A stretch of DNA of 64,000 bases from Meiothermus sp. (GTDB taxonomy: Bacteria > Deinococcota > Deinococci > Deinococcales > Thermaceae). Positions 7,129-47,715 of this stretch are shown here, one piece after another. Within the stretch, counting starts at the first letter, position 1; every line of letters begins with the position of its first letter. The stretch is from positions 1 to 64,000 of the forward strand of contig NZ_BPIJ01000001.1 of assembly GCF_026004055.1 (NCBI RefSeq). Direction: 5' to 3'. The notes beneath the pieces are model-generated. The model saw nothing but the letters and a program-made list of their open reading frames with translations, searched no databases and was not told the DNA's origin. A program made the position numbers and the translations under genes.

Positions 7129-7919
7129 GTGGCCGCCCACGAAAACGAGAAGGGACAAGCAGACGTGCCTCACCTCGGTGAGGCACGCTTGTCTGCGTTG
7201 CGTCTGGGCCAGGTTAGCCACGTTGTGGCTATGGCATAAGCCATTCCCTGGCAGACGCATGTTACGCACTGGGGCGTGGGCCACGGGTGCTTGGGTTTCG
7301 AGTTTCCCGGCGGCCACTGTTTTGTCCAGGACAAAAGATTCTTATACCGGATTCAAAAAGATACTCTTCAAAACCAAAAACCCAGAGGCTATCTTTTTGA
7401 ATCCTAGAGCACACCCCTCCCTGACGGTCGGCGAAAAAAACGTCTCCCTTCCAAGGGGCGGTATCGCCCTCCGCTACGCGGATAACTTCGGTCGGGTTAG
7501 TTCGTTACCATTCGGTGACGAACTAACCGAATCTGGTATTAGTGGTCTGGTAACTAAATTTCCGAAGTTTTGTACCGCACACCGAATACATCGATGTAGA
7601 GATTCCATCCCACTTCGGCCCCCGAGATGGCCTAAAAACGCCCTCCCTACCGCGTAGGGAGGGTGGGGGAGGGTATCAGGCAAGGCCCCCAATCCGCTGC
7701 GTGAAGGGCCAGGTCAGCCACCCCACCTGGCCTCCCCTACGCAGTAGGGGAGGGAAGGGGCGAAGCGGGGTGGGGTGCTTTTTGCATGACCGTACAGGCA
7801 AGACACCGAAGGCCCAGGTTTACGAGACACGGCGCGTTCTGAAGGCTAAACCCCATACTGCGTATTTTGTTACCAGACCATTAGTCCCCGATGGCTCGAT
7901 ATTTGTGAAGAGCGCTCTA
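7129..7919 (+). repeat. Composite modular repeat, copy 1 (A+ B+ C+ D)
   Basis: Four parts are visible. Cassette A (7129-7317) is bounded by GTGGCCGCC / GGCGGCCAC and contains the hairpin GTGCCTCAC-CTCG-GTGAGGCAC. Cassette B (7344-7539) is bounded by ATACCGGATTC / GAATCTGGTAT. Cassette C (7540-7883) is bounded by TAGTGGTCTGGTAAC / GTTACCAGACCATTA and contains two hairpins (CCCTCCCTAC-CGC-GTAGGGAGGG and CCTCCCCTAC-GCA-GTAGGGGAGG). Tail D ends in TGTGAAGAGCGCTCTA. Almost identical to the copy at 24837-25628. A small ORF inside (7178-7657) recurs only because the DNA is repeated; nothing supports it as a gene. No transposase is present. Confidence 0.9.
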
Positions 7920-24836: not shown

Positions 24837-25628
24837 GTGGCCCGCCCACGAAAACGAGAAGGGACAAGCAGACGTGCCTCACCTCGGTGAGGCACGCTTG
24901 TCTGCGTTGCGTCTGGGCCAGGTTAGCCACGTTGTGGCTATGGCATAAGCCATTCCCTGGCAGACGCATGTTACGCACTGGGGCGTGGGCCACGGGTGCT
25001 TGGGTTTCGAGTTTCCCGGCGGCCACTGTTTTGTCCAGGACAAAAGATTCTTATACCGGATTCAAAAAGATACTCTTCAAAACCAAAAACCCAGAGGCTA
25101 TCTTTTTGAATCCTAGAGCACACCCCTCCCTGACGGTCGGCGAAAAAAACGTCTCCCTTCCAAGGGGCGGTATCGCCCTCCGCTACGCGGATAACTTCGG
25201 TCGGGTTAGTTCGTTACCATTCGGTGACGAACTAACCGAATCTGGTATTAGTGGTCTGGTAACTAAATTTCCGAAGTTTTGTACCGCACACCGAATACAT
25301 CGATGTAGAGATTCCATCCCACTTCGGCCCCCGAGATGGCCTAAAAACGCCCTCCCTACCGCGTAGGGAGGGTGGGGGAGGGTATCAGGCAAGGCCCCCA
25401 ATCCGCTGCGTGAAGGGCCAGGTCAGCCACCCCACCTGGCCTCCCCTACGCAGTAGGGGAGGGAAGGGGCGAAGCGGGGTGGGGTGCTTTTTGCATGACC
25501 GTACAGGCAAGGCACCGAAGGCCCAGGTTTACGAGACACGGCGCGTTCTGAAGGCTAAACCCCATACTGCGTATTTTGTTACCAGACCATTAGTCCCCGA
25601 TGGCTCAATATTTGTGAAGAGCGCTCTA
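24837..25628 (+). repeat. Composite modular repeat, copy 2 (A+ B+ C+ D)
   Basis: Nearly base-for-base identical with the copy at 7129-7919 and in the same orientation. The few differences seen are GTGGCCC for GTGGCC at the left end, GGCACC for GACACC, and CTCAAT for CTCGAT near the right end. It shares the extra roughly 60 bp of cassette B that the copies at 37650 and 44035 lack. The identity implies recent duplication or gene conversion. Confidence 0.9.
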
Positions 25629-37649: not shown

Positions 37650-38353
37650 TACAGCGCTCTTCACAGGCGTGGCCGCCCACGAAAACGAGAAGGGACAAGC
37701 AGACGTGCCTCACCGAGGTGAGGCACGCTTGTCTGCGTTGCGTCTGGGCCAGGTTAGCCACGTTGTGGCTATGGCATAAGCCATTCCCTGGCAGACGCAT
37801 GTTACGCACTGGGGCGTGGGCCACGGGTGCTTGGGTTTCGAGTTTCCCGGCGGCCACTGTTCTGTCCAGGACAAAAGATTCTTATACCAGATTCGGTTAG
37901 TTCGTCACCGAATGGTGACGAACTAACCCGACCGAAGGGAGTGCTCTAGGATTCAAAAAGATAGCCTCTTGGTTTTTGGTTTTGAAGAGTATCTTTTTGA
38001 ATCCGGTATTAGTGGTCTGGTAACAAAATACGCAGTATGGGGTTTAGCCTTCAGAACGCGCCGTGTCTCGTAAACCTGGGCCTTCGGTGCCTTGCCTGTA
38101 CGGTCATGCGAAAAGCACCCCACCCCGCTTCGCCCCTTCCCTCCCCTACTGCGTAGGGGAGGCCAGGTGGGGTGGCTGACCTGGCCCTTCACCCAGCGGA
38201 TTGGGGGCCTTGCCTGATACCCTCCCCCACCCTCCCTACGCGGTAGGGAGGGCGTTTTTAGGCCATCTCGGGGGCCGAAGTGGGATGGAATCTCTACATC
38301 GATGTATTCGGTGTGCGGTACATAACTTCGGAAATTTAGTTACCAGACCACTA
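37650..38353 (+). repeat. Composite modular repeat, copy 3 (A+ B- C-)
   Basis: The left end TACAGCGCTCTTCACAG is followed by cassette A in the same orientation as copies 1 and 2, but with hairpin loop CGAG instead of CTCG. Cassette B then runs from ATACCAGATTC to GAATCCGGTAT and is reversed relative to A. Cassette C runs from TAGTGGTCTGGTAACAAAAT to ATTTAGTTACCAGACCACTA and is also reversed. It lacks the roughly 60-bp extra segment of B found in copies 1 and 2. Its inverted partner is 44035-44774. Confidence 0.9.
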
Positions 38354-38612: not shown

Positions 38613-40244
38613 TCAAACCAGCCGGCTACGCAACCACGAAGAAGCAAAGTCGATGATATTCACCACAATCACAATCGCAATCACCCCCACGATCATCTGG
38701 TCGTACTGCCCCGAGGCCATCTTTTCGTTGATGAAGTAGCCGATGCCCCCGGCCCCTACCAGCCCCAGCACCAGCGAGGAGCGGAAGTTGATCTCGAAAT
38801 TGTAGACCGTATAGGACACAAACAGCGGCAAGACCTGGGGCAAAATGGCCCAGCGCACCACGTTCACCCCCGAAGCACCGGTGGACTCGAGGGCCTCAAC
38901 AGGCCCCTTGTCGGCGTTCTCGATGGCCTCCGAGTAGAGCTTGCCCAGCTCGGTGAGGGAGTGGATGGCGATGGCCATGACCCCCGCAAAAGGTCCCAAC
39001 CCCACTGCCGCCACCAGGATCAGGGCAATAATCAGGGTCGGAACCCCCCGCAGCACGTTTAAGAAGAGGCGGGTCAGATAGAACACCGAGCGCATTAGGG
39101 GTGTACCCGAGGTCACGTTGCGGGCAGCCAGAAACGAAAGGGGCATGGCAAAGATGGCGGCCAGGAAGGTGCCCACCAGGGCCATCTGCACCGTGACCGC
39201 AATCTGGCTCAAGACTTCCTGCAGGGGATAGCGCTCGGCACCTGGGTCGGCCAGCAAGGGCGGCCAGGCTTTGTCGGCAAACTGCTGCAAGAAGGGCCAG
39301 CCCACCACCAGCTTGTTCAGATCGAACTCGGTGGCATCAAAGGCCGGAATCAGAAAGCTCGCCACCAGGGCAATCAGGATGCCGGCACGGAAGTCGTCGG
39401 GCTCCTGCAAACTGGCGTTGCGCAGTTGCATGAGCCCGGCCCCCAACATCAAGCCTGCCAGGAAGAAGACTGCAAAGGCCCCGTACTGGGTGGTGGCCGG
39501 CTGTACCAGGCGGTAACCCTCGCTCGAGGCTTGCTGGGGAATGGCCCCTTGCAGGTCGGCCAGGCTCTGAATGGGCTTCAGCTCGTCCTGACCCAGTTCT
39601 TTGCGGATGGCGTTAAGCTCGGGCAACGCCCGGTTATAGGCCTCGGCAAATTCTTGCTGGGCAGTGGGGGGTGTGGGAAAGAGCAGCTTGTAATAGCCCA
39701 GGCTTTTGGGCAGGTAGGCCCCGCCCCCCTGGGGGGTGTGGAACCAAAAGAAGGCCAGCACCCCCGCCACAACCGCCCCTATCAGGATGGGGACACGCTG
39801 CCGAGGGCGGCTGAAGGATAAGAGCGCGATGGAGCCCGCCACCCCCAGGGCCAAGAGCAGCTCAATCAGGCCCTCGAGCGGATAGAGTTTGGCAATCTGT
39901 ACAGGCTGAAGGTACCACCCACCGGCGGCAACCAGGGTCGCGACACCACCCAGCACCCCGCCCAGCCCAGCCGCCTGCCCACCCCGACGGGCCAGCACCA
40001 GCGCGAGCAGCACCCCCAGCGGAATCAGCAGCAGCAAGGGTAAAACCGGCACCACCCCTAACAGGGTGGGGTCTATGGTATCGCGGCTCAAAAAGCCCCG
40101 GGCCCGGCTGAAGGGGAAGGCCGCAAAGACCACCAGCAAGGCCAGTCCAGCACCGATGATCCAGCGCCGCATGGAGCCTTTGGCCACGCCCGCCAGCACG
40201 GCCAGTACGCCACCCAAAAGCGTGTAGAGGAGCAGCTCGGTCAT
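38613..40244 (-). CDS. phnE: PhnE-type ABC transporter permease with large N-terminal membrane extension
   Basis: A 543-residue permease. The C-terminal roughly 220 residues are a normal PhnE-like transmembrane domain with the EAA-type loop (IAIHSLTELGKLYSEAIENADKGPVEALESTGAS). Ahead of it lie about 320 residues with around eight extra hydrophobic helices and a soluble segment (QEFAEAYNRALPELNAIRKE), not found in the usual 260-280-residue PhnE. The transporter imports phosphonate, phosphite or a related anion. It overlaps phnC by 4 nt (ATGA). No phosphonate lyase or phosphite dehydrogenase gene is in the cluster. Confidence 0.88.
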   Translation of the reverse strand: MTELLLYTLLGGVLAVLAGVAKGSMRRWIIGAGLALLVVFAAFPFSRARGFLSRDTIDPTLLGVVPVLPLLLLIPLGVLLALVLARRGGQAAGLGGVLGGVATLVAAGGWYLQPVQIAKLYPLEGLIELLLALGVAGSIALLSFSRPRQRVPILIGAVVAGVLAFFWFHTPQGGGAYLPKSLGYYKLLFPTPPTAQQEFAEAYNRALPELNAIRKELGQDELKPIQSLADLQGAIPQQASSEGYRLVQPATTQYGAFAVFFLAGLMLGAGLMQLRNASLQEPDDFRAGILIALVASFLIPAFDATEFDLNKLVVGWPFLQQFADKAWPPLLADPGAERYPLQEVLSQIAVTVQMALVGTFLAAIFAMPLSFLAARNVTSGTPLMRSVFYLTRLFLNVLRGVPTLIIALILVAAVGLGPFAGVMAIAIHSLTELGKLYSEAIENADKGPVEALESTGASGVNVVRWAILPQVLPLFVSYTVYNFEINFRSSLVLGLVGAGGIGYFINEKMASGQYDQMIVGVIAIVIVVNIIDFASSWLRSRLV

Positions 40245-40999
40245 GCCAGCATCTCCTTACGTTCGTAGAGGTCGTCTACCACGTCTTCGGATAGTTCGGT
40301 GGGCAGCCCATCGAACACCACCCGCCCCCGCTTGAAGGCGACGATGCGTTTGGCGTACTTGAGGGCCAGGTCGAGGGCGTGAATGTTGATCACCACCGTT
40401 ACCCCGTCCTGCTCGTTGAAGCGCTTGAGGGTACGCATGACCTCCTCCGAGAGCACCGGGTCGAGGTTGGCGGCGGGCTCGTCGGCCAGCATCAGGGTAG
40501 GTTGCTGGGCCATGGCCCGGGCAATGGCCACCCGCTGTTGCTGCCCCCCCGAGAGCGAGTCCACTCGAGCGTTTTCCTTCGCCGCCAGATCCACGCGCCC
40601 CAGCTGCTGCCGGGCAATCCGGTAATCGGCCTCGCCGTACAGGCCCAGCAAGCCACGCCAGGTCGGGAGGTAGCCCAGGCGGCCATGCAAAACGTTGTCC
40701 AGGGTACTCAGGCGGTTGACCAGGTTGAACTGCTGAAAGATAAAGCCCACCGTGCGGCGGTACTTTTGCAGCTCACGCTTGGGCAGCCGGGTGATGTCGG
40801 TGCCGTTCACCACCACCGAGCCAGTGGTGGGAATTAGCAATCCGTTTAGGGTGCGCAAGAAGGTGCTCTTGCCGGCCCCCGAGCGGCCAATCACGGCCAC
40901 AAAGTCGCCCTGGGGAATGTCCAAGTTGATATCCATCAGCACCTGGAGCGGCCCCTTGGCGGTCTGGAAGGTCTGGTTGAGGTTGCGAACTTCAATCAT
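40241..40999 (-). CDS. phnC: PhnC-type ABC transporter ATP-binding protein
   Basis: A 252-residue ATPase from ATG 40999 behind GGAGAGG. Walker [11 protein letters not shown]-loop FIFQQFNLV, signature [14 protein letters not shown], Walker [13 protein letters not shown], and a switch His in [10 protein letters not shown]. The PhnC-like features [14 protein letters not shown] and [11 protein letters not shown] are present. It energises uptake through PhnE and is second in the phnDCE order. Confidence 0.92.
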
Positions 41000-41102
41000 G
41001 CGTCCTCTCCATCCAACATCACTTTCCACATCGGTTTCATGTCATCAAATCATAAGCCCCCAGCAACCTGGGGGCAGGGGTACACAGCTAACTTGCAAAC
41101 CC

Positions 41103-41978
41103 TTACTGACCAGCCACTTTGCGGGCCTGCCGCACCACATCGTAGTCGGAGTCCTGGGCCGGAATCATGTAGTCGATGCGGTAGAGGTTGAACAGGAGCT
41201 TGTTTTCAGGGGTTCTAATACCCTGCAAGGCCGCCGCAATGCCACGCGATAGGGTGGGGTTCTTGGCATAAAACTGCTTGGAAACCGAGAAAGTGTCGCC
41301 GGGGATGGGCTTGGAGTAGAAGATGGCCGTCAGCTGGGCGGCTTCCTCGGGCTTGAGGAACTGCGTCCAGGCCCCGCTCTTGTTGCGGGTATCGTTGGCG
41401 AAGGTGGCGCAGGCATCCACCGATTTGTTGAGCACGGCCAGCACGCAGGCATCATGGCGCCCGGCAAAGGTCTGCTTGGCAAAGAGTTTGTCCGGGTCGA
41501 GGCCGGCCCCTACCACCGCCGCGCGGGGGAAGACATACCCCGCCGCCGAGTTCTTGTCCACCCAGGCGATGCTTTTGCCGTCAAGACCCTGGAGGTTCTT
41601 GATGCCCGAGTCCTTGCGCACAATGATGGCGCTCCAGTAGAAGGGGCTGGTGCCACGCACGCTCTTCAGGAGCACCTGGGCCCCTACATCCTGGTTGGCA
41701 ATCACATAGCCATCGGGCGGGAAGAAGGCAAAGTCGAGGTTGCCGCCGCGCATGGCCTCGATCAGGCCGCGGTACTCGGTGGGGATGAAGATTTCCACCT
41801 CGATGGCCCCCTGGAAGCGGCGCTCGAGGTAGTCCGCGATGGCCTGGGCCGCCGGACGAAGCTGGTCGGAGTTCTGGGTGGGGTTGAAGCCGATGCGTAC
41901 TTTGACCGGGTTCTGCGCGAAACCAACCGACAGACCCAGCGCCAACAAAGCCAGTATGAGAAGCAAGCTACGTTTCAT
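41103..41978 (-). CDS. phnD: Phosphonate/phosphite-type ABC transporter substrate-binding protein
   Basis: A 291-residue periplasmic protein with a clear signal peptide (LLLILALLALGLSVGFAQ). The PhnD-like fold is seen in KVRIGFNPTQNSDQLRPAAQ, then EIFIPTEYRGLIEAMRGGNLDFAFFPPDGY, then ADGKSIAWVD-type text here as LDGKSIAWVDKNSAAGYVFPRA. The ligand may be phosphonate, phosphite, hypophosphite or phosphate. It heads the phnDCE operon, and the 103-bp gap to phnC is common in such operons. Confidence 0.9.
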   Translation of the reverse strand: MKRSLLLILALLALGLSVGFAQNPVKVRIGFNPTQNSDQLRPAAQAIADYLERRFQGAIEVEIFIPTEYRGLIEAMRGGNLDFAFFPPDGYVIANQDVGAQVLLKSVRGTSPFYWSAIIVRKDSGIKNLQGLDGKSIAWVDKNSAAGYVFPRAAVVGAGLDPDKLFAKQTFAGRHDACVLAVLNKSVDACATFANDTRNKSGAWTQFLKPEEAAQLTAIFYSKPIPGDTFSVSKQFYAKNPTLSRGIAAALQGIRTPENKLLFNLYRIDYMIPAQDSDYDVVRQARKVAGQ

Positions 41979-42129
41979 ACGCCGCCTAGCCTACACCAGC
42001 TTCTGTCAGATTTGAATCAGGTCAAAGTTTTTTTTGGCCTGGATGTAGTTTGTAAGCTGAACCGGTTTTGAAAACAGCCACCTGGGGTCGTTGCGCTGAA
42101 GGTCTGACAAGGATCCCCGGCAAAGGAAG

Positions 42130-42135
42130 TAAAAT
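42130..42135 (+). promoter_or_regulatory. -10 element, leaderless start of the HAD gene
   Basis: TAAAAT lies 7 nt before ATG 42143. The GGAAG just before it is too far from the start to serve as a ribosome site. Confidence 0.45.
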
Positions 42136-42142
42136 CACGCAG

Positions 42143-42826
42143 ATGCAAGCCCTGATCTTCGATTTCGACGGTACCATACTCGACACCGAAAGCACCGAGT
42201 TTCAGGCCTGGCAGGAGGTTTATCAGGAATACGGGGCCGAGCTTTCGCTGGACTACTGGCTTCCTTTTGTGGGCAACAACTCGATTCCTTTCGACCCTGC
42301 GGGCCACCTGGAAAAGCTGGTAGGCAAACCACTGGACAAGCAAAGCATCGAAGACTGGGTTGGGCAGCGCAAACAATCCCTCAACCAGTCGCTAAAACCC
42401 CTGCCGGGGGTGCTGGACTACCTCGAGGCCGCCCAGGCGATGGGTCTGAAGCTGGCGGTGGCCAGCAGCTCGAGGCGGGCCTGGGTGGAAGGACACCTGG
42501 AGCGACTGGGGTTGCTGTCGTACTTCCAGGTCATCCGCACCAAGGAAGACGTGGCCCTGACCAAGCCCGACCCGGCCCTCTTTTTGCGGGCTGCCGAAGG
42601 GCTCGGGGTACCGCCCCGAGAAACCATTGTGCTCGAGGACTCCCAGAACGGGGTACGGGCGGCCAGGTTCGCGGGGGCCTTTACGGTGGCCGTTCCCAAT
42701 GCCCTCACCCGGCACCTGGACTTGAGCCAGGCCAATCTGCTGCTAGAGAGCCTTGGTGACCTGCCGTTGTGGGATCTGCTGCCCATAGCACGGCAGTGGG
42801 GCCGCACCCGGCTACCCACCGTTTAG
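42143..42826 (+). CDS. HAD-superfamily phosphatase (beta-phosphoglucomutase/GPH-like)
   Basis: A 227-residue subfamily IA HAD hydrolase. Motif I FDFDGTILDTE, motif II AVASSSRRAW, motif III TKPDPALFLRAAEGLG and motif IV LEDSQNGVRAARFAG are intact, with a helical cap between I and II. This branch includes phosphoglycolate phosphatase, beta-phosphoglucomutase and similar enzymes; the substrate is not clear. It converges on the amidase gene with a 15-bp overlap of the 3' ends. Confidence 0.88.
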   Translation: MQALIFDFDGTILDTESTEFQAWQEVYQEYGAELSLDYWLPFVGNNSIPFDPAGHLEKLVGKPLDKQSIEDWVGQRKQSLNQSLKPLPGVLDYLEAAQAMGLKLAVASSSRRAWVEGHLERLGLLSYFQVIRTKEDVALTKPDPALFLRAAEGLGVPPRETIVLEDSQNGVRAARFAGAFTVAVPNALTRHLDLSQANLLLESLGDLPLWDLLPIARQWGRTRLPTV

Positions 42827-43891
42827 GAAGCGCAGGATGCCCCGGGCCAGGGCCTCGGCCAGGGCTTGACGGTAGGCACTGGTTTGGAGGCGGCGGCCCT
42901 CCTCGGGGTGGTTGGCAAAGCCGACCTCGACCAGAATGGCGGGGATGCGGGCATTACGGATCACGTAGAAGGGCGCCTGGCGTACCCCCCGGTCTACCGC
43001 GCCGGTGGCCTGGAGCATAGCGCCATGCACCAGATGGGCCAGCTGGCGCGAAAACTTGAGGTTGGACTGGGCGATCAGATCGCGCACCAGCCGCTCGCCC
43101 ACGCTCTGGGCCTCGCGGGTCAGGCGACGGCCCAGCTCGCCCCCGCCGTTTTCGCGGATCACCTGGGCCAGCAGGCCGGGGTCAATGGAGTGGCCAAAAT
43201 AGTAGGTCTCGAGGCCCTGGGCCGGATTGGAAGCACTGTTGACGTGAATAGAAACGAACAGGTTGCGCTTGGAGTGGGCCATCTCGGCCCGCAAGCCCAG
43301 ATCGGTGGCCTTGTCGGGGGAAAGATGGGTGTCGCTGCTACGGGTAAGGATCACCTCGATGCCTTCTTTTTGTAGCAATTGCCGCAAGCGCAAGGCCATG
43401 TCGAGGGTGACCTCTTTTTCCACCACAAAACCCACCGCGCCGGGGTCTATGCCCCCATGCCCGGCGTCAATGACCACAATCTTGGGCTGGGTGCGAGGCT
43501 TAGGGGGCTCTGGACGAGAGCTGGTCTGGGGTGGGCTCTGCGGGGGTCGGGTCGCGCTCACCACATCCACCACCAGGCGCCGCCGGTTGCCATCGTTTAG
43601 CTCCGAGGTTTTGACCTCTACGTTGGGGCGCAAGCGAACAAACACCGTGGCACCCCCCGCCGCGGGCACCACCTGGTAGGAGGCGACCTGCGGCGAACCG
43701 ACATCGGTATCGCTGGCGGCAGGGGTCATGCCAATCAGGCGAAGGGTCAGGGTGTCGGGCGTCTGGGTAATCTGGTACTGCGTTTTGGCCTCGAGATCGA
43801 ACACCAGTCGGGTGTAGCCTTCGTGCAGGCCCAGTCTGGGAAAAGCCAAAGCCGGAGCCAGAATTACCATCAGGAAGGCCAATAGCCGCAT
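42812..43891 (-). CDS. N-acetylmuramoyl-L-alanine amidase (AmiC/LytC-type, Amidase_3)
   Basis: A 359-residue secreted zinc amidase that cleaves the stem peptide from glycan strands of murein. Signal peptide (LLAFLMVILAPALAF), an N-terminal AMIN-like beta domain (LHEGYTRLVFDLEAK, YQVVPAAGGATVFVRL), a Pro-rich linker, then the catalytic domain with zinc ligands in DAGHGGIDPGA (His145), VEKEVTLD and FVSIHVNSA, and the last Glu in ILVEVGFANHPEE. ATG 43891 was chosen because it begins the signal peptide and TATACT lies 8 nt upstream. Confidence 0.92.
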   Translation of the reverse strand: MRLLAFLMVILAPALAFPRLGLHEGYTRLVFDLEAKTQYQITQTPDTLTLRLIGMTPAASDTDVGSPQVASYQVVPAAGGATVFVRLRPNVEVKTSELNDGNRRRLVVDVVSATRPPQSPPQTSSRPEPPKPRTQPKIVVIDAGHGGIDPGAVGFVVEKEVTLDMALRLRQLLQKEGIEVILTRSSDTHLSPDKATDLGLRAEMAHSKRNLFVSIHVNSASNPAQGLETYYFGHSIDPGLLAQVIRENGGGELGRRLTREAQSVGERLVRDLIAQSNLKFSRQLAHLVHGAMLQATGAVDRGVRQAPFYVIRNARIPAILVEVGFANHPEEGRRLQTSAYRQALAEALARGILRFLNGG

Positions 43892-43899
43892 CTGTTTGG

Positions 43900-43905
43900 A
43901 GTATA
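43900..43905 (-). promoter_or_regulatory. -10 element, leaderless start of the amidase gene
   Basis: TATACT on the minus strand, 8 nt before ATG 43891; there is no ribosome site. Confidence 0.5.
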
Positions 43906-44034
43906 GCCGAAAAACTTGCGTTCTTTTTGAAGATTTGACCCCGGTTCCCACGGGCTTGCACAGCCATGCCATCTGCGCACAGTTCGCAATAGGTCACTGG
44001 TCATTGGCTGCTTGTAGCTTTCAGCCTTCGGCTT

Positions 44035-44774
44035 TAGAGCACTCTTCAAAAATATCGAGCCATCGGGGACTAAGGGTCTGGTAACTAAATTTCCGAAGTT
44101 TTGTACCGCACACCGAATACATCGATGTAGAGATTCCATCCCACTTCGGCCCCCGAGATGGCCTAAAAACGCCCTCCCTACCGCGTAGGGAGGGTGGGGG
44201 AGGGTATCAGGCAAGGCCCCCAATCCGCTGGGTGAAGGGCCAGGTCAGCCACCCCACCTGGCCTCCCCTACGCAGTAGGGGAGGGAAGGGGCGAAGCGGG
44301 GTGGGGTGCTTTTCGCATGACCGTACAGGCAAGGCACCGAAGGCCCAGGTTTACGAGACACGGCGCGTTCTGAAGGCTAAACCCCATACTGCGTATTTTG
44401 TTACCAGACCACTAATACCGGATTCAAAAAGATACTCTTCAAAACCAAAAACCAAGAGGCTATCTTTTTGAATCCTAGAGCACTCCCTTCGGTCGGGTTA
44501 GTTCGTCACCATTCGGTGACGAACTAACCGAATCTGGTATAAGAATCTTTTGTCCTGGACAGAACAGTGGCCGCCGGGAAACTCGAAACCCAAGCACCCG
44601 TGGCCCACGCCCCAGTGCGTAACATGCGTCTGCCAGGGAATGGCTTATGCCATAGCCACAACGTGGCTAACCTGGCCCAGACGCAACGCAGACAAGCGTG
44701 CCTCACCTCGGTGAGGCACGTCTGCTTGTCCCTTCTCGTTTTCGTGGGCGGCCACGTCTGTGAAGAGCGCTGTA
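44035..44774 (-). repeat. Composite modular repeat, copy 4 (inverse of copy 3, plus D)
   Basis: Reading the minus strand gives copy 3 almost base for base: TACAGCGCTCTTCACAG, cassette A with loop CGAG, B reversed, C reversed. After C it also has tail D (TAGTCCCCGATGGCTCGATAT, ending near GAGTGCTCTA), which copy 3 lacks. Together with 37650-38353 it forms an inverted repeat of about 700 bp around 5.7 kb. Confidence 0.9.
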
Positions 44775-44811
44775 ACGAAACAAGTAACGGGGCAGATGTC
44801 CCAAACCCGTT

Positions 44812-44910: not shown

Positions 44911-47715
44911 ATGGCTTTATATTGGAACCGGCATAGGCTCTGGCTTTTGGTTTGGGTACTGGTTTTTTCGGCGTGCTCGAGTCCCAAAAACACCGCCCCT
45001 GGCCCCTACGCCGCTGGCCCGGTCCTGTGGTCGGACTCCGGCGAGGGGAGGGTAATAACCCAAGCTGTCCCCAGCGGCAATGTGTATCTGAGCGACCTGA
45101 GCTGGCTCTCGGCCACCAACGGCTGGGGGCCGGTGGAGCGTGACCAGAGCAACGGCGAGACTGCCCAGGGCGATGGGCGTCCCATTACCCTGAATGGGGT
45201 GGTGTTTTCCAAGGGTCTGGGCGCCCATGCCCCTTCAGATATCCTGAACAACCTCGGCGGCAACTGTACCCGCTTCCGCGCAGCGGTGGGCCTGGACGAT
45301 GAGGTAGACCACCAGACCGAGTGGGGGAGCGTGATCTTTCGGGTGCTGGCCGATGGGGTTTTACTCTTTGACTCGAGCCTGATGCGGGGCAGCAGCCCTA
45401 CTCAGACGGTCGATGTGGACGTGAGCGGTCGCCAGGAACTCCAGCTAATCATTACCGATGGAGGTGACAACAACTACTACGACCACGCCGATTGGGCCGA
45501 TGCACGCCTGGTCTGTGCCGAGGGAGGCGGCGGCGGTTCGACGCCGCAGGGCCTAACCGGTGAATATTTTGACAATAGCAACTTTACCGGCACTAAAGTA
45601 ACCCGCCTGGATGCCCAGATCAACTTCAACTGGGGCCGGGGCTCTCCCGAAAGCCAGATCGCACCCGATACCTTCAGCGTGCGCTGGACGGGTCAGGTTG
45701 AGGCCCGCTTTAGCGAGACCTACACCTTTACTACCCGTACCGACGACGGGGTACGGCTCTGGGTCAACGACCAGCTGATTATTGATAGCTGGCGCAACCA
45801 GTCGGCTACCAACCGAAGCGGAAGGATTACCTTGGTAGCCGGACAGCGCTACAGCCTCCGCATGGAGTATTACGAGAGCACCGGCAGCGCGGTGGCCCAG
45901 CTCTACTGGAGCAGCCCCAGCCAGGCCCGCGAGATCATTCCCCAGCGCTACTTGTATCCCATCAACGTAACCGGCGCGCTACAGCCCCCTACCGACCTGA
46001 TTGCAGTGGGTTTATCCGAGAACAGCGTTTACCTGGACTGGTCGGGCGTGGGAGGGGCTACGGGGTATGTGGTGGAACGGCGTACGGGAAGCACCGGCAC
46101 TTTTACTCAGGTAGGCGTGCCTATAGGCTCGAGCTTTGTGGATAATGGCCTATCCCCTGGTACCCTCTACACCTACCGGGTAAGCGGCACCGCTCCCGAT
46201 AAAACCTTGTCCTATGCCACTACCACCGTTACTACCCCTACTGCAACCGGCCCGGTGCAGGGTGGAGCGGAAGCCCGCACCAAAGGGGTTTTCGGCCCGG
46301 TGCGCGACTTCCCACTGGTGGCTACCCACGCCGCGCTACTGCCCAACGGTAAGGTAATCGCCTGGTACAGCTACGACCGGATTGGGGTCTACCGCGATAA
46401 CCAGGATGCTAATGCGCCCTTTCACCAAAGCTCCATCGTGACTTTGTGGGATCCCGCAACCAACACCTTCGAGGAGGTCAACAACAACACCACCGACCTC
46501 TTCTGCGCGGGTTGGGCGGTCATGCAGGATGGGCGTTTGCTGGTGGCCGGGGGCAACCTGGGCACGCCCAACGGAAGCCTGCATACCAATATCTTCGATC
46601 CCGTTACTAAAACCTGGATCCGCGGCCCCAACATGCGGGCCGGGCGCTGGTATCCCAGCGTGACACCCTTGCCCAACGGCGAACTGCTCATTACCGGCGG
46701 CCAGACCGAAACCGGAGCCAACAACACCGTGCACGAGGTTTGGCAGACCAACGGCAGCCTCCGGCAGCTTACGGGGGCTACCACGTCGGGGCGCGATTTT
46801 GAGCACTACTTTCCCTGGATGCACGTAGCCCCCAACGGGCTGGTATTCCATGCAGGCTGGAACAATACCATGTCGTATCTCAACCCCGCTGGCAGCGGTT
46901 CATGGAGCAGCCAGACCTGGACGCGCCAGGGGCCTCTACGCTGGTACGGTTCTTCGGTCACGTACCAGCCAGGTCGGATTATCGTTCTGGGAGGCGGCGC
47001 CAGCGCCAATGCTTCCACCACCCTAATAGACCTTACCAACGGCGTGACTTCCCAGGCCGGCCCTTCCATGAACTTTGCCCGCACCCACCCCGACGCCACT
47101 CTACTGGCCGATGGAAAGGTATTTGTCAATGGGGGCAACAACGGTGACCTGTGGGATCTGGCCTCGTCGGTTTATGTGGGCGAGATTTGGAACCCCCAGA
47201 CCAATACCTGGACGGTGGCGGCTTCCGCCCAGCGACCGCGAAACTACCACTCGGTGGCTTTGTTACTGCCGGATGCCACCGTCTGGGTTGCGGGCAGCGG
47301 CGGGTGTGGCCTGGAGTGCCAGCCCGGGAGCGGCAGCGCCCGCGCTGGGGTAAACCAACTCAACTACGAGGTTTACTATCCGCCGTATCTCTTCGATAGC
47401 AGCGGTTCACTGGCCACCCGCCCGAGCATCAGCAACGTTCCAAGCAGCATTCGCTACGGCCAGGGCTTTGTAATTGAAACCCCCGATGCCCCCAACATTG
47501 GATCCGTTACTCTACTAGCTCTGGGGGCTTCTACCCACGCTTTCAACTACACCCAGCGTTTTATGGCACTGCCCATCCAGTCCAGGAGTTCTACTGGCCT
47601 GACCGTGCTCGCACCGGCCAATCCTAATCTGGCCCCGCCCAACTACTACATGGTGTTTATCTTCAATCAAAGCGGCGTGCCCTCGGTTGCCCGTATCGTG
47701 CGGCTTGAACCTTAG
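44911..47715 (+). CDS. Lipoprotein radical-copper oxidase (galactose/glyoxal oxidase family) with NPCBM, PA14 and Fn3 domains
   Basis: A 934-residue exported protein. A lipoprotein signal ([11 protein letters not shown]) is followed by an NPCBM-like carbohydrate-binding domain (about 50-210, [16 protein letters not shown]), a PA14 domain (about 210-350, [14 protein letters not shown]), an Fn3 domain (about 355-445), and a seven-bladed Kelch-type oxidase with a C-terminal DUF1929 Ig-like domain. All radical-copper residues of galactose oxidase can be placed: Cys532 (LFCAGW) for the Tyr-Cys cofactor with Tyr581 (RWYPS), then Tyr779-His780 (RNYHS) and His876 (STHAFN). The stacking Trp290 of galactose oxidase is Thr599 here, closer to glyoxal oxidases. 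It would oxidise a primary alcohol or aldehyde and release H2O2 at the cell surface. GGGGGG precedes ATG 44911; ATGs at 44851 and 44884 are less likely. Confidence 0.88.

Follow-up and report, generated by a model that had tools for sequence, protein, structure and literature searches.

The gene and its modules

The stretch of DNA analysed here – 64,000 nucleotides of a Meiothermus contig, referred to below as the window – carries on its forward strand a gene for a modular protein whose C-terminal half matches the copper-radical oxidases, the family that includes galactose oxidase (GalOx) and the Streptomyces enzyme GlxA. The gene, its modules, the residues of interest and the adjacent repeat are located as follows.

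44911..47715, + strand: copper-radical oxidase gene, 934 aa (open frame)
44911..44976, + strand: putative signal peptide with lipobox, Cys22 (sequence; orthologues have LAAC or LTAC at the equivalent place)
45079..45510, + strand: NPCBM (CBM51-type) module, residues 57–200 (Pfam PF08305, 3.6e-53; PDB 2vmg/2vmh)
45547..45945, + strand: PA14 module, residues 213–345 (Pfam PF07691, 2e-31; top PDB match 6qe7, RsgI3)
45985..46188, + strand: weak Fn3 module, residues 359–426 (Pfam PF00041, 21.3 bits)
46261..47712, + strand: catalytic part (predicted Kelch propeller and Ig domain), residues 451–934 (AlphaFold2, Foldseek/VIA)
46504..46506, + strand: Cys532, putative cross-link Cys (GalOx C228, GlxA C121; position check, alignments)
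46648..46653, + strand: Trp580–Tyr581, relocated stacking Trp and putative cross-link Tyr (GlxA W288 and the next Tyr; alignments, PMC13094651)
46705..46707, + strand: Thr599, at the GalOx W290 position (position check, phmmer alignment)
47245..47250, + strand: Tyr779–His780, putative axial Tyr and first His ligand (position check, joint alignment)
47419..47703, + strand: GO-like E-set (Ig) domain, residues 837–931 (Pfam PF09118, 1.2e-23)
47536..47538, + strand: His876, putative second His ligand, within the Ig domain (position check, joint alignment)
44035..44775, no strand: composite non-coding repeat directly upstream of and outside the gene, on one side of an inversion

Pfam Kelch and Glyoxal_oxid_N also score above cut-off in the 934-residue protein. 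The sugar-type modules that a sequence-only reading of this DNA had placed in front of the enzyme are confirmed for NPCBM and PA14; the Fn3 module falls below the curated Pfam cut-off of 25 bits here and rises above it only in the orthologues. Two of the three orthologues scanned, both of them longer proteins, have an additional CBM6, accompanied by Fn3, located between NPCBM and PA14. At the N-terminus, the lipobox (FSAC) is imperfect at position -3, and those of the orthologues read LAAC and LTAC; the protein is lipoprotein-like, and putatively lipid-anchored at the cell surface, in keeping with the anchoring first proposed for it.

A stable gene beside an inverted block

The oxidase gene is convergent with accA–accD, and the same junction is found in contigs L001, L002 and L003 and in G018; in L004 the gene is located elsewhere. 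The earlier suggestion that its position beside a mobile repeat might be recent does not stand, as at least four further Meiothermus genomes conserve the gene–accA junction. An insertion of recent date was ruled out, and the gene itself judged unmoved, because of this shared junction and because its G+C content equals that of its surroundings (0.607, against 0.612 for the window).

A block of about 5.4 kb at 38613–43941, running from a phosphonate-type transporter to an amidase (named from their translations), is inverted relative to G018, whose orientation is shared by SKYG110 for the available part of the block. Two inverted repeat copies flank the block (37650–38349 and 44075–44774, 99.7% identical), so its inversion is most simply explained by recombination between these copies. 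The repeat has a core of about 340 bp (44075–44415), present in at least 40 copies in the same genome at 99–100% identity; one further Meiothermus genome has two copies at 97%, and elsewhere there are only diverged pieces of about 110 bp. This pattern marks the recent proliferation of a small element that carries no coding sequence. The core often abuts a second unit (44540–44775), and the copy at 44035–44775 is interrupted by a 125-bp segment bearing perfect inverted repeats; further copies in the window lie at 37650–38349, 25253–25589 and 7544–7880. Rfam gave no match to the upstream repeat, a sigma-70 promoter and terminator scan upstream of the gene found neither, and a search against a library of defence genes was likewise without a match.

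A copper-radical oxidase scaffold

For the catalytic part, AlphaFold2 (27-sequence input; pLDDT 90.4, pTM 0.92) predicts a seven-bladed Kelch propeller with a C-terminal Ig domain, as in CAZy family AA5. The top structural matches to this model are all copper-radical oxidases (Z 50.8 to 40.5 by Foldseek and VIA-align), the next unrelated propeller scoring 24.3. A phmmer search of the catalytic part against PDB chains agrees, with the bacterial galactose oxidase 9g43/9g8h as the best match (E 5e-62, or about 1e-61) and Fusarium galactose oxidase, GlxA (4unm) and fungal alcohol oxidases among the others. The five metal and cofactor residues of galactose/glyoxal oxidases – Cys532, Tyr581, Tyr779, His780 and His876 – lie where they had been placed by inspection and are invariant in 27 of 27 aligned Deinococcota sequences. 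Tyr581 aligns with GalOx Y272 in the phmmer alignment, and in the joint alignment the Cys, the second Tyr and the two His fall at the GalOx and GlxA ligand positions. Both the fold, as modelled, and the ligands thus bear out the assignment as a radical-copper oxidase.

Similarity declines in the order galactose oxidase (33% identity, Z 51), GlxA (27%, Z 46) and fungal glyoxal oxidase (23%, Z 40.5). The galactose oxidases of Pseudoarthrobacter siccitolerans (9G43/9G8H) and Fusarium (1GOF) are the best match in sequence and fold, with metal ligands like those of the window protein; they differ from it in having Gly before the cross-link Tyr, Trp at +18 and Arg330, where the window protein has Trp580, Thr599 and Phe630. 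GlxA of Streptomyces lividans (4UNM) shares the propeller and Ig fold, the five residues and a Trp right before the cross-link Tyr, its identity being that of the structural alignment; the window protein adds a putative lipobox and the NPCBM, PA14 and Fn3 modules. FgrAldOx (9N3U), a Fusarium AA5_1 aldehyde/glyoxal oxidase, shares the cofactor residues and a W509–Y510 pair (PMC13094651), but is only 23% identical (Z 40.5) and has a WSC domain where the window protein has NPCBM and PA14.

By NCBI's curated cut-off, the window protein is not a GlxA orthologue: it scores 199 bits against the GlxA equivalog NF052501, for which 800 are required. GlxA–CslA (PMC11022532) is the nearest studied analogue, yet the window gene has no adjoining glycan synthase or copper chaperone; it has no cslA (cellulose synthase-like) neighbour, and the adjoining genes, judged by their translated products, are an amidase gene and accA.

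A relocated tryptophan

In galactose oxidase, the residue stacked on the cofactor is W290, which lies 18 positions beyond the cross-link Tyr; Arg330 has a role in sugar binding. In the window protein, the position of W290, occupied in the GalOx type by Trp, Phe or Tyr, holds Thr599, while Phe630 aligns with the missing Arg330. That Thr599 takes the place of the stacking Trp had been recognised from the sequence; what needs amending is its meaning, for the Trp has moved rather than been lost. In GlxA the stacking residue is W288, which matters for cofactor formation, and in FgrAldOx W509 directly precedes the cross-link Tyr510 (both PMC13094651). When a Deinococcota relative is aligned with 4unm, and likewise in the joint alignment, the GlxA Trp falls at Trp580, immediately before Tyr581; the chain index of GlxA was related to its published numbering by an offset of 30, fixed by C121 (named in PMC4736821). 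Trp580, like the five cofactor residues, is invariant across diverged relatives. Loss of the stacking Trp was accordingly rejected in favour of relocation, and W678, an aromatic position in most of the clade that had been considered as the replacement, was ruled out when the GlxA alignment pointed to Trp580.

Among 39 aligned sequences, 33 have W–Y and 6 have G/A–Y with an aromatic residue at +18, and in a tree of these 39 rows the two types fall on either side of a single branch (support 100/100), with the window protein outside the GalOx clade, itself supported at 100/100. One W–Y row, from Sinorhizobium, has an additional Tyr near +18.

Trp580 at the GlxA W288 place, Thr599 and the missing Arg330 together argue for an enzyme of the glyoxal/aldehyde type rather than a galactose oxidase. 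The residues around the active site thus suggest the former, even though similarity over the whole scaffold is somewhat nearer GalOx, and the gradient given above counts against this reading. Since W290 and R330 of the GalOx pocket are missing, the substrate would most likely be an aldehyde, or an aldehyde or primary alcohol on a glycan, rather than free galactose; judged by these residues, H2O2 is probably made from aldehydes or sugar-chain ends and not from galactose.

Distribution and selection

At least one relative is present in each of 18 genomes of the genus (18 of 18, that of the window included), while no convincing copy was found in 27 genomes of a sister genus taken to be Thermus. 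Orthologues of the window gene itself occur in five other Meiothermus genomes, including M. hypogaeus, with catalytic parts 82–86% identical. With dN/dS at 0.08–0.10, purifying selection on the gene is strong. The occurrence of such an enzyme in a thermophile, also part of the original claim, agrees with Meiothermus being a moderate thermophile.

A third oxidase clade (L027, L028, L029 and L040; about 800 aa) retains the five residues and has long extra propeller segments. Elsewhere, a sister genus has a tandem pair of copper-radical oxidase genes, one with PA14 and one without (L049, G003:C3:2484224-2487816), and oxidase genes directly adjoin an SCO copper chaperone on a Caballeronia plasmid (L059, 743-3392) and a copper P-type ATPase on a Haliscomenobacter plasmid (L063, 1-3497).

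One GlxA homologue from Deinococcus-Thermus was noted as early as 2013 (PMC3543389). Our literature search found no paper on a copper-radical oxidase from Meiothermus, nor any joining galactose oxidase with Meiothermus or NPCBM; publications on glyoxal oxidase, copper radicals and thermophilic bacteria were, by their titles, general reviews or fungal work.

A second oxidase in polysaccharide clusters

The genome of the window encodes a second oxidase (G000:C2:918880-921478; L030, 8863-11566), directly after an epimerase gene and with genes for a DegT aminotransferase, a Big_2 protein and a GT4 farther up the same strand. G018 has an equivalent gene run by its translations, and G009 has the epimerase–oxidase pair with glycosyltransferases; in all, the paralogue follows an epimerase in the polysaccharide clusters of three Meiothermus genomes, the DegT aminotransferase being seen in two of the three. 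The paralogue is 46–49% identical to the window protein and shares its motifs and its PA14 and Fn3 modules, but sits in a glycan-synthesis cluster, and NPCBM was not found in the one paralogue scanned (L021). The link to glycan deposition drawn in the sequence-only reading is visible at the paralogue locus and not at that of the window gene.

In the genome of the window, a frameshift at eight consecutive C deprives the paralogue of the Ig domain and of the last His within it; the C tract may be phase-variable, or the frameshift may be an assembly error. Should the frameshift be genuine, no intact copy other than the window gene was found in this genome.

Proposed function and alternatives

We favour, with some reserve, a lipid-anchored extracellular copper-radical oxidase of the AA5 type, outside the GalOx clade, which would act on an aldehyde or a glycan end and release H2O2. 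This proposal combines the modelled fold with the ligands, the relocated Trp, the conservation and the purifying selection read from the sequences. In its favour, too, are the polysaccharide clusters around the paralogue and the copper-handling genes beside other bacterial relatives; the low GlxA equivalog score and the lack of an adjoining glycan synthase or copper chaperone count against it. One copper ion would be bound by Tyr581, Tyr779, His780 and His876, and Tyr581, thioether-linked to Cys532, would form the radical cofactor, on which Trp580 would stack and, like W288 of GlxA, stabilise the radical. Two electrons would be taken from the substrate – an aldehyde of the glyoxal or methylglyoxal type, or an aldehyde or primary alcohol on a cell-surface glycan, which the NPCBM and PA14 modules may hold – and passed to O2 to give H2O2.

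More tentatively, the Meiothermus clade may be a distinct functional type, in which a compact GalOx-like scaffold, a GlxA-type relocated Trp and an NPCBM/PA14/CBM6 tether would serve to oxidise the cell's own surface polysaccharide, cross-linking or capping it at high temperature.

We consider it unlikely that the enzyme is a galactose or general primary-alcohol oxidase (AA5_2-like) acting on the galactose ends of NPCBM-bound glycans. NPCBM modules bind galactosides, those of known structure belong to glycan-degrading enzymes, and the closest solved structures are galactose oxidases, the bacterial P. siccitolerans enzyme first among them; against this stand the missing W290 and R330 (Thr599 and Phe630) and the position of the protein outside the fully supported GalOx clade. 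Rather doubtful, too, is a role as a mere H2O2 source, feeding a surface peroxidase or harming competitors in a hot-spring biofilm, with the sugar modules used for attachment only: H2O2 follows from the chemistry, and the putative lipoprotein signal and modules would suit such a role, but reading the translations of neighbouring genes, in the window and at the orthologue loci, revealed no recognisable peroxidase. A catalytically dead Kelch adhesin with the fold retained, which the adhesion-type modules N-terminal to the Kelch part might bring to mind, is highly improbable given five cofactor residues and a Trp580 invariant over diverged relatives and the low dN/dS.

Significance

Copper-radical oxidases are valued as biocatalysts, and the Meiothermus clade of the favoured AA5-type oxidase offers natural candidates for heat-stable versions. 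The clade also gives a clean series of sequences, with the radical-stabilising Trp at one or the other of two places, so that its effect on the choice between aldehyde and alcohol can be tested. With two genes per genome, one of them in a polysaccharide cluster, Meiothermus provides a bacterial system beyond Streptomyces for studying the action of these oxidases on surface glycans.
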